Below the pieces are notes generated by a model, which was not told the origin of the DNA, did not search any database, and saw nothing but the letters and a program-made list of their open reading frames with translations. The position numbers were made by a program, and so were the translations under genes. Positions 58-5,506 of a DNA stretch of 5,506 bases are shown here, one piece after another (position 1 is the stretch's first letter; each line of letters opens with the position of its first letter). Source of the stretch: Deltaproteobacteria bacterium (GTDB lineage Bacteria > Desulfobacterota > DSM-4660 > Desulfatiglandales > HGW-15); contig JAFDIC010000282.1 in assembly GCA_019308525.1 (NCBI GenBank), positions 1 through 5,506 of the forward strand, given 5' to 3'.

Positions 58-64
58 AAGGAGG
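58..64 (+). promoter_or_regulatory. Ribosome binding site of the selenoprotein gene
   Basis: AAGGAGG lies 7 bases before the ATG at 72, a near-perfect Shine-Dalgarno sequence at ideal spacing. It fixes the start at 72 and so includes the signal peptide. No convincing -35/-10 promoter pair can be picked out in the 57 bases before it. Confidence 0.85.
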
Positions 65-71
65 CCTTGCT

Positions 72-740
72 ATGAAAGAAAAAATATTTCCCTTGATCGT
101 GTCATTGCTCGTTTTGGTCCTGGTCTGGGGAGTTTCCTTAGCACAGGAGAGGGGCGGTCCTCCCCCAGGATTTCCCGCCCGAGAGGACAAGGGTCCCAGG
201 GTGGGTGACGTCGCCCCACCCTTTAAGCTTAAGTCCCTGGATGGGAAGGAAGAGTTTGAGATGGAAGCATTCAAGGGTGTGAGACCCGTGGTCCTTCTTT
301 TCGGCAGCTATACCTGACCTCCATTCTATCGCTCGGTGAGCGATATGGAGAAAATGTATCAGGACTATAAAGATATCGCCGAGTTTCGAATTGTCTATAT
401 CAGCGAAGCCCATGCCATTGACGACAGGCGGCCCGTGCCATACGCCATCGAGAAGGGCATCAAGGAGCCCAGAAGTTACGGGGAGCGATGCTCAGTCGCC
501 CGAATCCTGATAGCTGAGGGAAAACTCACAATTCCAACTATTATTGATGACATGGACAACCATGTGGCTGAGGCATATGACGCCCACCCGAACCGGCTTT
601 TCCTTGTCCGCAAGGACGGAAGGCTGGGTGTGGCGGGCGGTCCGGGCCCCTGGGGTTGGGAACCGTCCCTTGAGGAAGCTCGCAAATGGCTTGCCCATTA
701 TAAAAACACGGGCACGGAGCCTGAGCTTTCAAAAAACTAG
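72..740 (+). CDS. Exported deiodinase-like selenoprotein, TGA at 315-317 read as selenocysteine
   Basis: Seen: an ATG at 72 opens a frame reaching TGA at 315-317, and the same frame continues without another stop to TAG at 738-740, giving 222 residues with position 82 as Sec. Residues 1-24 form a signal peptide (KEK, then a long Leu/Val core, then SLA before Gln25), so the mature protein should be periplasmic. A redoxin-like start (VGDVAPPFKL, 44-53) leads to strand PVVLLFGSYT (72-81), Sec82 and PPF. Later blocks match iodothyronine deiodinases: VYISEAHA (108-115), ER...A.ILI (138-147), IPTIIDDMDN (154-163), and a C-terminal GPGPWGWEP block near 190-198. Known: the family has a thioredoxin fold with catalytic Sec; vertebrate members remove iodine from thyroid hormones. 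Inferred: a periplasmic selenol redox or reductive dehalogenation enzyme of unknown substrate. Odd: only one Cys (140); Tyr80 and Ile154 replace two conserved deiodinase cysteines. A nonsense-mutated pseudogene is the alternative, made unlikely by the SECIS-like hairpin and the intact downstream frame. Confidence 0.88.
315..350 (+). promoter_or_regulatory. Selenocysteine UGA codon and bacterial SECIS-like stem-loop
   Basis: TGA at 315-317 is followed at once by a strong hairpin. CTCCA (319-323) pairs perfectly with TGGAG (346-350). After a one-sided TTC bulge (324-326), TATCGCT (327-333) pairs perfectly with AGCGATA (339-345). The apical loop is CGGTG (334-338), or GGT if C334-G338 also pairs. 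The loop G bases are 17-18 bases past the TGA. Known bacterial SECIS elements lie in the reading frame just 3' of the UGA and present one or two G followed by U in a small loop for SelB, at about this distance. The base after the stop is C, the weakest UGA termination context in E. coli. All 12 canonical pairs are read directly from the sequence; SelB binding is inferred. Confidence 0.85.
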
Positions 741-809: not shown

Positions 810-847
810 ATCAGCCCTCCCCAGGGGGTCTTTTCCCAAGGCCCAAT
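810..847 (+). repeat. Left arm of a perfect 38-bp inverted repeat
   Basis: Bases 810-847 are the exact reverse complement of 1004-1041, with no mismatch over 38 bases. The arm begins ATCAGCCCTCCCC and ends CCAAGGCCCAAT. Just outside it, GGCTGTTGCCCAAAA (772-786) pairs with 1056-1070 at 13 of 15 positions, so the symmetry extends past the perfect core. Confidence 0.93.
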
Positions 848-886
848 CAGAATTCTCCCACGTCCTTACAAGGGCACCTAACACCT

Positions 887-900
887 TGTCGAAGGCGACA
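887..900. repeat. Small perfect hairpin TGTCG-AAGG-CGACA
   Basis: Five base pairs (887-891 with 896-900) close an AAGG loop. Its core TCGAAGGCGA reappears as the reverse complement at 1041-1050, inside another hairpin, so it belongs to the surrounding inverted-repeat pattern. Confidence 0.6.
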
Positions 901-1003
901 GTAGCCCCAGAAGATCATCTCCACCGAAGCCTCCACACCCCTTGTGTCCTATTGAGCAACCCCTATAAGGATAATGGGGGCGTGAGAACGGCTCAGGAGC
1001 GAT

Positions 1004-1041
1004 ATTGGGCCTTGGGAAAAGACCCCCTGGGGAGGGCTGAT
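1004..1041 (-). repeat. Right arm of the perfect 38-bp inverted repeat
   Basis: This is the exact reverse complement of 810-847, and 156 bases separate the arms. Within the spacer, 863-874 and 960-971 are also inversely related (10 of 12), so the region is an imperfect palindrome of roughly 300 bases (772-1070). It may be a MITE-like element, two inverted copies of one short repeat, or a long structured RNA. No transposase is present to decide. Confidence 0.93.
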
Positions 1042-1363: not shown

Positions 1364-3238
1364 TTACCTCCATAGGGCATCGCGCAATCCCGACCTCCTC
1401 TCGGTACGCCTGGACACGGCGGCTCGAAAGATATCCTCCTTGCACCATATTTCTACGGACTCCCGGGCCCTGGTTATGGCCGTGTAGATGAGTTCCCTGG
1501 TCAAGAGGGGTGTATCCCGGTCGGGCAGGATCAGGACTACCCTGTCAAACTCCGAGCCCTGGCTCTTGTGTACGGTCATAGAATAGACCGTTTCATGCTC
1601 CGGGAGCCTGGCAGGGTGGATCTTCCTGAAGCCCCCGCCCGCTTCCGGAAAAAAGACCCGGAGGTCATTTCCCTCCTCCGGGTCCTCCAAGACAATGCCT
1701 ACATCGCCGTTATATAACTCGAGGCCGTAGTCATTGGTGATGATCATTACGGGTTTCCCTGCATAGTATCCTTTTTCCTGCCTGATAACCCCTTTATCTT
1801 TCAAGGCCTTCTCCGCCAGCAGGTTCAGAGCGCCTATCCCGTAAGGCCCTTCCCTCACGGCGCAAAGGATCCTGAATCGCTCAAACATGCGAAGGCATTC
1901 ACCGGGGTCTGAGCTTCCCGGGTAACCCCCGTAGCTTGCCAGGATCTTCTCCCTCATCACCCTTGGAAAGGCCCCTTGCTCGGGCAAGGGTTTCCAGTGG
2001 ACATCCTGGTAGTGCGTGCTCATGAGGCAGTCCAGGGCAGCATCCCCATCGCCCCTGTTCACATGATCACTCAACAGGGCGATGCCGCTGTCCCGCGGGA
2101 ACCTGTAACTCTTTTCAAGCTGCACTATGCACTCCCTGATGCCCCTTGCCTCCTTCCCCTCAACAGGGATACTGTACCCTGTCATCCGCCTGAGTTCCCT
2201 GGAAAAGGTGCTCGAAAAGGTGTATGAAGGTTCCACGTCGCATATATCCCCCAGGATGGCTCCTGCCTCCACGGATGCCAGCTGGTCCTTGTCTCCCAGC
2301 AGTATCAGGCGTGATCCCCGGGGAATCGCCTGGACGAGCTTGGACATCAGGGCAAGGTCCACCATGGAGGCCTCATCCACCACGACCACATCCACGGAGA
2401 GGGGGTTCTCCCTGTTATGGCGAAAATAGGGACTGTCCTTGATGGGCCCCAGCAACCTATGAATGGTCGAGGCATCTGAAGGCATGGAGTCTCTTATGTC
2501 TTGCGTGCAGGGGAGGCTCTTCTTGACTTCTCTTATGGCTTCCTGCATCCTTGCCGCCCCTTTCCCTGTGGGAGAGGCCAGTGCGATCCGCGGCTTTGCC
2601 CCGTCTCCCTGTTCAAGGAGCAGGGCCAGGATCCTGGCTACAGTGGTCGTCTTTCCCGTGCCCGGGCCTCCCGAGATGACACAGAACCTCTTGCTAAGGG
2701 CGGTAAAGGCGGCCACCTTCTGCATGTCCCCATCCCCGTCGGAAGGATCTCCGGGAAAGAGAGTGGACAGCATGCGCTCGAACATTCGAGGATCCCCGGG
2801 GAGATCAATCCCCTCTGCCCTCTCCCTTATCGATTCGGCCAGTCTTTCCTGGTATTCCCAGTAACGGTAAAGGTACAGCCTGGCCCTTTCATCGAGGATC
2901 AGGGGATTGTACTCTCCAGGCCTTCCCACAACCCTGCTCTCCTCCAGCCCCCTAACCCACTCTTCCAGTTCCGGGCACAGGAAGTCTTCCTCTTCCTTTT
3001 CCTGCGCTGGTAAAGGTTTCCCAGCCATGGCCGAGAGGTCCAGGCAAATATGTCCCTGCCTGGTGTGACTGCTCAACAGCGCCGCGGACAGGGAGACCAG
3101 GAATTGGTTTTTCTCTGCCAGTCGCGAGATCAACCTCGCGAAATGTATATCCAGGTATGAGAGAATCCCCTTGTCGTGGAGTAGATACAGATCTTCAGTG
3201 TTCGCCATGAAGGTGATTTTCCCCTTGCCAGAATTCAC
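1364..3238 (-). CDS. recD: RecD, exodeoxyribonuclease V alpha subunit (5'-to-3' helicase)
   Basis: RecD is the fast 5'-to-3' motor of RecBCD, which processes double-strand breaks for homologous recombination and degrades foreign linear DNA. The 624-residue product (E. coli RecD is 608) is complete. Its N-terminal block has the RecD-typical LDIHFARLISRL (29-40) and GHICLDLSAM (62-71). Superfamily 1 helicase motifs follow: Walker A GGPGTGKTTT (190-199, Lys196), ASPTGKGAARM (221-231), Walker B VVDEAS (286-291), LILLGDKDQL (311-320), KSYRF (376-380), MTVHKSQGSEFD (554-565) and YTAITRAR (585-592, arginine finger). All key residues are present. The start used is GTG at 3236-3238 with GGAG four bases upstream; ATG at 3206-3208 (residue 11) is a reasonable alternative, because family similarity begins only after it. 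The gene follows recB after 9 bases, pointing to one transcript and perhaps coupled translation. It converges on the selenoprotein gene. Confidence 0.96.
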   Translation of the reverse strand: MNSGKGKITFMANTEDLYLLHDKGILSYLDIHFARLISRLAEKNQFLVSLSAALLSSHTRQGHICLDLSAMAGKPLPAQEKEEEDFLCPELEEWVRGLEESRVVGRPGEYNPLILDERARLYLYRYWEYQERLAESIRERAEGIDLPGDPRMFERMLSTLFPGDPSDGDGDMQKVAAFTALSKRFCVISGGPGTGKTTTVARILALLLEQGDGAKPRIALASPTGKGAARMQEAIREVKKSLPCTQDIRDSMPSDASTIHRLLGPIKDSPYFRHNRENPLSVDVVVVDEASMVDLALMSKLVQAIPRGSRLILLGDKDQLASVEAGAILGDICDVEPSYTFSSTFSRELRRMTGYSIPVEGKEARGIRECIVQLEKSYRFPRDSGIALLSDHVNRGDGDAALDCLMSTHYQDVHWKPLPEQGAFPRVMREKILASYGGYPGSSDPGECLRMFERFRILCAVREGPYGIGALNLLAEKALKDKGVIRQEKGYYAGKPVMIITNDYGLELYNGDVGIVLEDPEEGNDLRVFFPEAGGGFRKIHPARLPEHETVYSMTVHKSQGSEFDRVVLILPDRDTPLLTRELIYTAITRARESVEIWCKEDIFRAAVSRRTERRSGLRDALWR

Positions 3239-3242
3239 TGGT

Positions 3243-3258
3243 CTCCGTCAGGCCTCCT
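3243..3258 (-). promoter_or_regulatory. Possible ribosome binding sites of recD overlapping the end of recB
   Basis: On the minus strand AGGAGG (3253-3258) lies within the last codons of recB, and GGAG (3243-3246) falls after its stop. GGAG is 4 bases from the recD GTG, which is short, while AGGAGG is 14 bases away, which is long. Neither is ideal, which suggests recD translation depends on ribosomes finishing recB. Confidence 0.4.
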
Positions 3259-5506
3259 GTCTCTTTTGATCTGGAGTCCTGTCTATCAGGCTATTGCTCA
3301 ATGCCCTTATCAATTGCTCGGGGGGTCTGTCCCTGTATATGCCGTAGTCGGGTCCCCTTTCATGGTCTACGCCGCGCAGAAAGACATAAAAGACTCCGCC
3401 GAAATTCTCTTCATAACTGTACCCGGGGACCCTCAATCCCAGGTACTGGTCAAGGGCGAGCGCATAGATATGGTACTGGAAATGATAGAAGTTTTCCTCC
3501 ATGGCCCTGGAAACAGCCTCCTGTCCGTAGTCTTCTATCCTGTGACCCAGGAAATTGGACTTCCAGTCCACGAGATAGAAACGATCTTTCCACCTGAACA
3601 CCATGTCCATGAAACCCTTCATGAAACCCTTGACAGGAGAGAACTCGAGTCTTTCAAGGTATTCAGGGTAGTTTTGCAGTGAGTCCCCGTGGGACCCCTT
3701 GACAAAAAGGGCCCTCAGGCCCTCGACGGAGATCTGCTTGAGAGGGAAATAGAACTCCAATTCATTGAGCCGGTCCTGGTTCGGAATCTTTGAGAGGCAA
3801 AGTCCCTCATCGCCCGGATCAAGGGGCAGGGACAGTACCCGGTGGATCATTTCGCAGACCGCGTCCAACCACGAGATTTCAAACCCGTAGGACCCGAGCT
3901 TCCGGGAAACCAGTTCCCGGACCAGGGTCAAGTCTGCGGTAAAATCCAGGTGCTCGAAGATATCATGGAAGAAGATTCCGGCCCTTGTCCCCCTGGGGAA
4001 GGAAAATATGGTCGCTGAATCCTGGCTTGCCTCTTCCTCTTCGAATACCTCAGTCTCTTGTGCCTGGCTTTCAATTATTGCATCGTAGTCGGGCAGTTCT
4101 TCTCCGTGCCTTTGAGCGTGGGCAAGGGAAGAAAAGCTGGAGACCCTCCACTGCCGGTCGATCTCTCCCTTGAATCTCCTGGGCCCCAGGACTCTCTCTC
4201 TTTCCAATCGAGGAGAAAGGGCAGGCGCATCATCCAGGGGAATATGGCACATGCCTATTGCTCCCCCTGCCCTTTCCTGGATATCTGCCAGACCCCTGTA
4301 GAACTCCTCATCACTCAGGGAGTTCACGATCGCCCCGGTCTTCCTGGCAATATCAGCTTCTTCTCCTGGATCCTTGTAATAGAAAAGGTATGCGGGCCCG
4401 GATGTCTCAGACTCATTTATCCTCCCCCAGACAAGGTAGCAGCGATTCCTTGCCCGGGTGAGGGCGACATAAAGTAGTCGCAGGTTTTCGGCCAGGGACT
4501 CCTCTTCCGCCTTTAAGAGGTGTTCTTCCACGCCGGATCCAAGGTCCAGGGTCAAACGCATCTCGTCGTCCTTGTCGTGGAAGATGAGATCTTCTCCTTT
4601 CCTTGCCAGGGAGCCATCCCAGGTAAAGGGACAAAACACCACCGGATACTCCAGGCCCTTGCACCTGTGCATGGTGATTATCCTTACCGCATTTTCATCA
4701 CTTTCCAGGCGCAACTGGTGTTCTTCGAGCTTCCGGGTACCAGGGCTTCTTTGTTCCGCGAGCCATTTAAACAGGCCTGTCATGTCGAGCTTCTTCTCTG
4801 TTGATATCCTGTGCAGTGTCTCCTCCAGGTGCAGCAGGTTGGTGCAGCGTCGTTCTCCGTCCCTGTAAGCCATGAGGCGCACGAGCACCCCCTCTCTCAA
4901 GAGCAGGGTACGAAACATCCTTATGAAGCCCTGTTCCTGCCAGATGAGGTTGTAATCCCGAAACTGTACAAGACGCCTTTCCCATTCCCTGTCATTTCCC
5001 ATCAAAATCTCTATGGATTCTCCTTTCAAGCCCAGCATATCCGTTGAAAGGGCAGCCTTGAAAAGGACTTCATTGCCTGGCTCCACGATGCTCGCCAGTA
5101 CCCTTTCCAGCTCCAGGGCCTCGTGGGACTCGAAGAGGTTGGCCGAGCTGTATACAATGCTTGGTATGTTAAGGGCCGACAGGTCTTTCTGTATGAGCTC
5201 GGCTTCCCGGTTTCTCCTGACCAGCACGGCAATATCCCTTTCCTCCAGGGGCCTTTGCCCTATCAGGGCCTTATTCTGCCGTCCCAGGTGAACCAGCCTG
5301 GATATCTCCCCCACAACTCCCCTTCGGATCAACTCCCTGGCCTCTCCTTTGTTAATCACCTCACCGGGCTTTGCCAGTTTCCCTGGATCAAGCAACCATA
5401 TTTGAAGGGGTTCCTGGCTATCAGGGTCCATCCTGAGGACCTCCTGATCTTCCCTCTCAGCAGGTTCAACAGGCCGAAACCCTATTTCCTTGTAAACAAA
5501 GGGGCG
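3248..5506 (-). CDS. recB: RecB, exodeoxyribonuclease V beta subunit (3' part; start outside window)
   Basis: RecB provides the 3'-to-5' helicase and the only nuclease of RecBCD. The last 752 residues are visible; the frame stays open to the window edge, so the Met at 5429-5431 (visible residue 26) is not the start. The missing part would hold Walker A and helicase motifs I-III. Visible in order: MWLM-like IWLLDPGK (about 36-43), helicase motif V ITMHRCKGLEYPVV (277-290), motif VI LLYVALTRAR (344-353), an acidic linker (about 485-495), then the RecB nuclease domain: AGIFFHDIFEHL (His514), ELEFYFP (about 582-588), GFMDMVF (Asp634), VDWKSNFLG (Asp647, Lys649) and FQYHIYAL (Gln677, Tyr678). The stretch from GFMDM to FGGVFYVFLRGVD closely follows E. 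coli RecB, including DYKSNWLG. All nuclease metal ligands I would expect are present, so the enzyme looks active. The stop lies 9 bases before recD. Confidence 0.96.
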   Translation of the reverse strand, partial: RPFVYKEIGFRPVEPAEREDQEVLRMDPDSQEPLQIWLLDPGKLAKPGEVINKGEARELIRRGVVGEISRLVHLGRQNKALIGQRPLEERDIAVLVRRNREAELIQKDLSALNIPSIVYSSANLFESHEALELERVLASIVEPGNEVLFKAALSTDMLGLKGESIEILMGNDREWERRLVQFRDYNLIWQEQGFIRMFRTLLLREGVLVRLMAYRDGERRCTNLLHLEETLHRISTEKKLDMTGLFKWLAEQRSPGTRKLEEHQLRLESDENAVRIITMHRCKGLEYPVVFCPFTWDGSLARKGEDLIFHDKDDEMRLTLDLGSGVEEHLLKAEEESLAENLRLLYVALTRARNRCYLVWGRINESETSGPAYLFYYKDPGEEADIARKTGAIVNSLSDEEFYRGLADIQERAGGAIGMCHIPLDDAPALSPRLERERVLGPRRFKGEIDRQWRVSSFSSLAHAQRHGEELPDYDAIIESQAQETEVFEEEEASQDSATIFSFPRGTRAGIFFHDIFEHLDFTADLTLVRELVSRKLGSYGFEISWLDAVCEMIHRVLSLPLDPGDEGLCLSKIPNQDRLNELEFYFPLKQISVEGLRALFVKGSHGDSLQNYPEYLERLEFSPVKGFMKGFMDMVFRWKDRFYLVDWKSNFLGHRIEDYGQEAVSRAMEENFYHFQYHIYALALDQYLGLRVPGYSYEENFGGVFYVFLRGVDHERGPDYGIYRDRPPEQLIRALSNSLIDRTPDQKRQEA

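Follow-up and report, generated by a model that had tools for sequence, protein, structure and literature searches.

The gene and its reading frame

The DNA considered here, a 5,506-nucleotide stretch of a deltaproteobacterial genome (contig JAFDIC010000282.1, referred to throughout as the window), carries near one end a gene for a deiodinase-like protein whose frame is interrupted once by TGA. A first-pass annotation of the letters alone had read that TGA as selenocysteine (Sec) and the gene as a deiodinase-like selenoprotein hidden by it, a reading that is now supported by a profile match, by alignment, by conservation of the TGA and by a bacterial selenocysteine insertion sequence (bSECIS) hairpin. 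The elements of the gene are as follows.

59..64, plus strand: Shine-Dalgarno sequence AGGAGG, seen directly in the sequence, 7 nt before the ATG at 72
72..740, plus strand: deiodinase-like selenoprotein gene, 222 residues, from ATG 72 to the stop codon TAG 738-740, the sequence before and after the TGA being under coding selection
72..143, plus strand: putative signal peptide, residues 1-24, with a hydrophobic core and cleavage probably between SLA and QE, read from the translation by eye
315..317, plus strand: UGA codon for Sec82 in the motif GSYT-U-PPF
319..350, plus strand: bSECIS hairpin, with lower stem 319-323/346-350, bulge 324-326 and upper stem 327-334/338-345
335..337, plus strand: GGU apical loop of that hairpin, 17 nt after the UGA, on an 8-bp upper stem (minimum free energy -16.9 kcal/mol)
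396..413, plus strand: Tyr109, Glu112 and His114, equivalents of DIO1 Tyr153 and Glu156 and of Dio2 His162/Dio3 His202
468..470, plus strand: Pro133, at the position of DIO1 His174
489..491, plus strand: Cys140, the sole Cys that the protein has and a candidate resolving cysteine, on helix 136-150

Translation of 72-740 agrees with the 222-residue product originally described, the TGA at residue 82 being the sole in-frame interruption; that TGA, first given simply as 315, spans 315-317. The suspicion that the gene is hidden from annotation was also borne out, as the database entry (P0002) is a fragment of 128 residues, beginning at Met95, and differs from the 134-residue frame at 336-740. The best 120 of 255 database matches, the window's own fragment included, all lack the active-site motif and start 4 to 13 residues past the Sec position, so that work based on predicted proteins misses the chemistry of this subfamily. 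Among Cys-type proteins, which were sought separately with a Cys-form profile (3816 matches), the active-site motif is present in 120 of the 120 matches listed. The N-terminus, in which residues 6-24 are modelled at low confidence as a helix, suggests that the selenoprotein is exported via the signal peptide.

Selenocysteine at codon 82

Relatives were collected from 395 genomes of the phylum of G001, the genome that carries the nearest full gene found (L001), and from 392 genomes of the phylum of G002, a member of the Phycisphaerae; the query that retrieved the Planctomycetota domains was a Sec form, with E values accepted up to 1e-12. The resulting alignment holds 148 domains from 145 loci, or 146 once two duplicates are removed. 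Rows dropped from it were L003, L014 and L044, which coincide with L001 and L002, the two domains of L183, which coincide with L015, and the 50-residue match G499:C100. In one set of 30 loci, 21 have a Cys codon in a thioredoxin-type context, eight have TGA and one does not align over the residue; the 21 and the one were excluded from the family.

The catalytic codon is TGA in 132 of the 146 domains, a Cys codon in 12 (11 TGC, 1 TGT) and an Ala codon in one, the residue being absent from the last. Homologues with Cys or Sec at position 82, which the first-pass annotation had suggested looking for, thus amount to 144, counting the window's own. Each of the 132 Sec domains contains exactly one TGA, the catalytic codon itself. 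All ten Sec domains on the Desulfobacterota side (the window, L001, L015-L018, L022, L024, L027 and L182) had been chosen with their TGA already known, and therefore only the Planctomycetota share informs on the balance of Sec and Cys: 122 Sec, 12 Cys and one absent among 135 domains. Sec thus predominates among the Planctomycetota relatives found here, yet the protein database is rich in Cys forms, to judge from the 3816 profile matches, of which the 120 listed were sorted by form.

None of the conditions that the first-pass annotation had named as refuting its reading arose. The sequencing error raised there is excluded because the same codon is TGA in independent genomes. Between the window and L001, the nonsynonymous and synonymous rates are dN 0.112 and dS 0.41 before the TGA and dN 0.096 and dS 0.51 after it; judged by these rates, both sides are evolving as coding sequence, far beyond chance. 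A true stop, leaving a broken gene or an 81-residue peptide, is what the standard reading under table 11 delivers, and we consider it very improbable given the shared TGA, the selection downstream of it and the bSECIS. More improbable still is an organism with a recoded genetic code that reads every TGA as a residue: TGA serves as the stop codon of a RecB-like frame on this contig (3248-3250, minus strand), frames of 624 and 752 residues contain no in-frame TGA, and in the Sec domains TGA is confined to the catalytic codon.

Published constraints on bSECIS elements call for an apical loop of 3-9 nt that opens with two Gs and lies 16-37 nt from the UGA, on an upper stem of 4-16 bp and with a minimum free energy of -7.5 or lower (PMC13188914). 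The window hairpin conforms to all of them. So do hairpins in the 39 nt downstream of the codon in 116 of the 132 Sec genes and three of the 12 Cys genes, and at six control places between 2 and 50 of 130-132 sequences conform. When synonymous codons were resampled, none of 150 resamplings of the window was as stable as the real sequence (z -5.5). The same control finds extra stability across the Sec genes (mean z -0.93, Stouffer -10.7), none in the Cys genes (mean z -0.21, Stouffer -0.7) and weak extra stability at the control places (-1.3 to -3.5); it was used in place of dinucleotide shuffles, which had little power on the relatives (z below -2 in 4 of 36). The folds place the start of the apical loop mostly 17 or 21 nt after the UGA, with GGTC the commonest loop. 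The Sec genes were grouped by the position of the GG into A (25, the window included), B (49, of which 48 are distinct), both (43) and neither (15). The excess of pairing over partner shuffling is largest in the true register (87 of 150 against 61.9 in A, 210 of 288 against 155.7 in B) and is smaller (72 against 62.2 in A slid by +1, 152 against 115.8 in B slid by -3) or nil in slid registers. An Rfam scan of the window returned four matches far under the gathering scores and no tRNA-Sec or SECIS family.

Machinery for Sec insertion was sought in the genomes of relatives. The selA gene scored over its cut-off in 47 of 50 TGA-form genomes (the first 50 of 98), 4 of 10 Cys-only genomes and 10 of the 20 listed genomes in which no match reached 1e-12 (Fisher 2.9e-4 and 8.1e-5, uncorrected for kinship and completeness). 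G001 has selA and tRNA-Sec over the cut-offs, together with a SelB-like N-terminal piece (191 bits against a 242-bit cut-off) that runs off the contig end; in G002, tRNA-Sec is over the cut-off and so is selB, on the same contig as selA. ARAGORN found no tRNA-Sec at seven loci, and the Rfam model detected it elsewhere in G001 and G002.

Deiodinase fold and active site

The proposal that the product resembles iodothyronine deiodinases on both sides of the TGA, and that a Pfam search would reveal it, is upheld by a match to T4_deiodinase (PF00837) over residues 43-210 at 102.4 bits, against a cut-off of 27; in the same kind of search the part after the TGA scores 71 bits alone, and the part before it does not reach the family alone. 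AhpC-TSA is matched more weakly (37.1 bits, cut-off 26). Mouse Dio3 and Dio2 are the top solved matches by sequence and also by profile, with the catalytic columns aligned, so that residue 82 falls on their catalytic residue, where the TGA had been predicted to lie. A structural model built by AlphaFold2 from 88 sequences (mean predicted local distance difference test score 89.9, against only 42 in a run without an alignment) predicts an iodothyronine deiodinase fold for the catalytic core, and Foldseek and VIA-align both rank Dio3 and Dio2 first for it. The peroxiredoxin signature, P-x-x-x-T/S-x-x-C, is not present, the residues before position 82 being LLFGSYT.

The residues around the Sec are strongly conserved across the 146 domains: Ser79 in 132, Thr81 in 139, Pro84 in 138, Tyr109 in 143, Glu112 in 142, His114 in 144, Arg139 in 141 and Asp159 in all 146. 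Roles for the Tyr, Glu and His equivalents are taken from work on the vertebrate enzymes (PMC9141512, PMC11592359). In DIO1 the proposed proton relay comprises Thr125, Glu156 and His174, and the T125A and H174Q variants are inactive whereas H174A is active (PMC9141512). Pro133 of the window occupies the His174 position, and we considered whether it marks a damaged enzyme; the idea was dropped since Pro is the usual residue there (123 of 146, with His in 15), though in the subfamily of the window itself His prevails (His 94, Pro 20 and Ala 5 among the 119 readable of the best 120 database fragments). A residue at this position that leaves the Glu open to solvent would fit the activity of H174A.

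A Cys that could resolve the selenenyl intermediate is found in the helix at about 136-150 in 128 of 144 domains, two residues before or three after the catalytic residue (U-2 or U+3) in nine, at both kinds of place in one and at neither in eight. From this near-exclusive placement it looks as though each protein has one resolving Cys, at varied spots, and in the window this would be the helix-borne Cys140. DIO1 offers a precedent of the U-2 type in Cys124, which bonds with the catalytic residue (PMC9141512). Mouse Dio2 has Ala at U-2 and a Cys (in EDRC) that aligns with Cys140; this Cys is not discussed in the portion of the Dio2 structure paper that was available. Seven Planctomycetota genes (L171, L172, L175, L176, L179, L180 and L181) bear the UxxC motif as SYTUPPC; all seven lack a Cys at positions 140 and 146, and six of them lack any helix Cys.

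Relative to the vertebrate enzymes DIO1-3 (solved as mouse Dio3, 4tr3, and Dio2, 9h48), the window protein thus shares the fold, the Sec position and the active-site Ser, Thr, Tyr, Glu and His, and with Dio2 also the aligned Cys. Vertebrate deiodinases are membrane-anchored, whereas the window protein has the putative signal peptide in place of an anchor; it also differs in having neither a Cys at U-2 nor a distal Cys, in the Pro at the His174 position and in a loop D that does not keep DGW. The atypical 2-Cys peroxiredoxin Tpx (3hvv) is set apart by the Prx signature, which the window lacks, and by the EAH motif, which the window has.

Proposed function, relatives and neighbours

Our preferred reading, to which we assign a probability of about 0.88, is that the gene encodes a member of the bacterial deiodinase-like selenoprotein family in which UGA is recoded and whose product would be exported and perform redox chemistry on a small substrate with Cys140 as the resolving residue. 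Comparison with relatives supports SelB-type recoding in which the bSECIS at 319-350 acts on the UGA at 315-317, and a 222-residue product whose thioredoxin fold is of the deiodinase/peroxiredoxin type. The signal peptide would then export it; Sec82 would attack an electrophilic atom in a small substrate, either oxidised or halogenated, that Thr81, Tyr109, Glu112 and His114 might hold and protonate; Cys140 would take over the selenenyl intermediate as a selenium-sulfur bond; and a periplasmic thioredoxin-like protein could reduce that bond. The enzyme is best read as an exported peroxiredoxin-like selenoenzyme that reduces a peroxide or a halogenated small molecule.

Several observations weigh against this reading. 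The score for the NCBIfam family NF038285 (deiodinase_rel), with which residues 40-199 align at 134.3 bits, lies under the 250-bit cut-off and covers only model positions 174-334 of 347. The evidence for Sec machinery comes from relatives' genomes and not from the window's own, and selA was not seen in three of the 50 TGA-form genomes, whose completeness is not given. The bSECIS constraints fail in 16 of 132 Sec genes, and the covariation test covers groups A and B only (25 and 48 distinct), leaving outside it the 43 genes with GG at both places and the 15 with neither. The export call rests on an N-terminus judged by eye. As to the resolving Cys, eight of 144 domains have no candidate, the placement statistics ignore kinship, the seven U+3 genes may be a single lineage, and the helix Cys lies at +1 in the window and at +7 in most.

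It is at somewhat under even odds that the same selenoprotein acts mainly as a Sec peroxidase, a 1-/2-Cys peroxiredoxin or Tpx-like enzyme clearing periplasmic peroxides; the deiodinase matches are clearly the best, the Tyr/Glu/His set is almost invariant and the peroxiredoxin signature is missing before Sec82, all of which weigh against it. A reductive dehalogenase of iodinated or brominated aromatics, performing deiodinase chemistry on environmental substrates, is favoured by the retention of Ser79, Thr81, Pro84, Tyr109, Glu112 and His114 in 132 to 144 of 146 domains, and in DIO1 the Thr before the Sec is essential and His174 belongs to the proposed relay (PMC9141512). We nonetheless regard it as unlikely, given that the position of the Arg275-type clamp is Pro in the window and Arg in only 48 of 144 domains, that the His174 equivalent is Pro, and that no recognised neighbour hints at dehalogenation (by Pfam for the two other window genes, by eye for the open reading frame lists of L001 and L188). 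More doubtful again is the broader idea that Thermodesulfobacteriota and Planctomycetota secrete a Sec-dependent enzyme that reductively dehalogenates aromatics by deiodinase chemistry, its resolving Cys sitting on the helix that follows the active site. If it were true, the deiodinases of animals would represent an older bacterial enzyme of detoxification or scavenging that became specialised for thyroid hormone, and the mouse Dio2 Cys that aligns with Cys140 would be a relic of the ancestral resolving site.

Returning to the bacterial family to which our preferred reading assigns the gene, such proteins were, as the first-pass annotation noted, already known. Sequences from the Sargasso Sea (four Sec and six Cys) were reported in 2005 with a possible redox role, the bacterial function being left open (PMC1088965); 22 followed from Global Ocean Sampling in 2008 (PMC2398784), an EF-hand/deiodinase fusion in 2021 (PMC9402790), and a table in a 2026 review gives the family motif as UxxC (PMC13188914). 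The window gene is a further member of this published family, with the PF00837 domain, a Sec or Cys active site and a bacterial SECIS after the UGA in common, and its novelty is lower than first implied. It differs from the motif as tabulated in having UPPF, and with UxxC in only seven of 146 domains we do not treat that motif as defining. The relative L001 resembles the reported fusion, with an EF-hand Pfam match between signal peptide and deiodinase domain, whereas the window has no such stretch or match; ahead of the domain there is an EF-hand-like pattern in 35 of the 132 Sec genes and in 8 of the 12 Cys genes, counted by pattern match in frames that locus ends may cut. Among open-licence PubMed Central papers we found none on the prevalence of the family in Planctomycetota or on the resolving-Cys pattern, and none whose title concerns deiodinases in Planctomycetes; a paper on a Porphyra planctomycete names selenoproteins, with "deiodinase" occurring 0 times in its main text. 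What this analysis adds is the truncation of database records for this subfamily, the wide use of Sec in Planctomycetota and the Cys pattern, which suggests a helix-borne resolving Cys. Being small, with a single Sec, a single Cys and a strong bSECIS, the protein makes the role of bacterial deiodinase-like proteins testable.

In the tree the window groups with L001 (Shimodaira-Hasegawa-like approximate likelihood-ratio support 96) and then L188 (94), inside a set of four Desulfobacterota and three Planctomycetota rows (99), which suggests gene transfer between the two phyla; the fewest Sec/Cys changes on the tree number four. Within the order of G001 the gene occurs in 2 of 85 genomes. Six stretches of viral contigs matched a pattern, none of them encoding a relative, and the only plasmid match was at 24%, from Mycolicibacterium. 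Genome G846 has two TGA-form genes, L188 and L189, 64% and 41% identical to that of the window. At L015 (G362, contig C8), the Sec gene is adjoined by a second deiodinase-like domain whose catalytic position is taken by Ala (GSSASVL) and which may be a partner without catalysis of its own. The distant relatives L022, L024 and L027, with SITUPAA/SISUPAT motifs and one in-frame TGA each, are possibly a separate selenoprotein family.

The remainder of the window holds the following.

810..1041: element resembling a miniature inverted-repeat transposable element (MITE), between the selenoprotein gene and recD, with perfect 38-bp inverted repeats at 810-847 and 1004-1041
within 1364-5506, minus strand: RecD-like gene (Pfam), following the RecB-like gene
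from the window end (5506) to the TGA at 3248-3250, minus strand: UvrD_C/RecB-like gene (Pfam)

Two helicase-nuclease subunits thus lie side by side on the strand opposite to the selenoprotein gene. The names shown for relatives of the RecD-like protein, in a minority of the 120 matches listed, are Deltaproteobacteria, Thermodesulfobacteriota, Syntrophobacteria and Desulfobacterales, which makes a thermodesulfobacterium, related to sulfate reducers, the probable host. The MITE-like element has at least nine dispersed matches, 73-76% identical, in G844, the one genome with them among 85 from the order of G001 (scores were taken for 9 of 73 candidates), and four of the G844 copies were aligned with the window.
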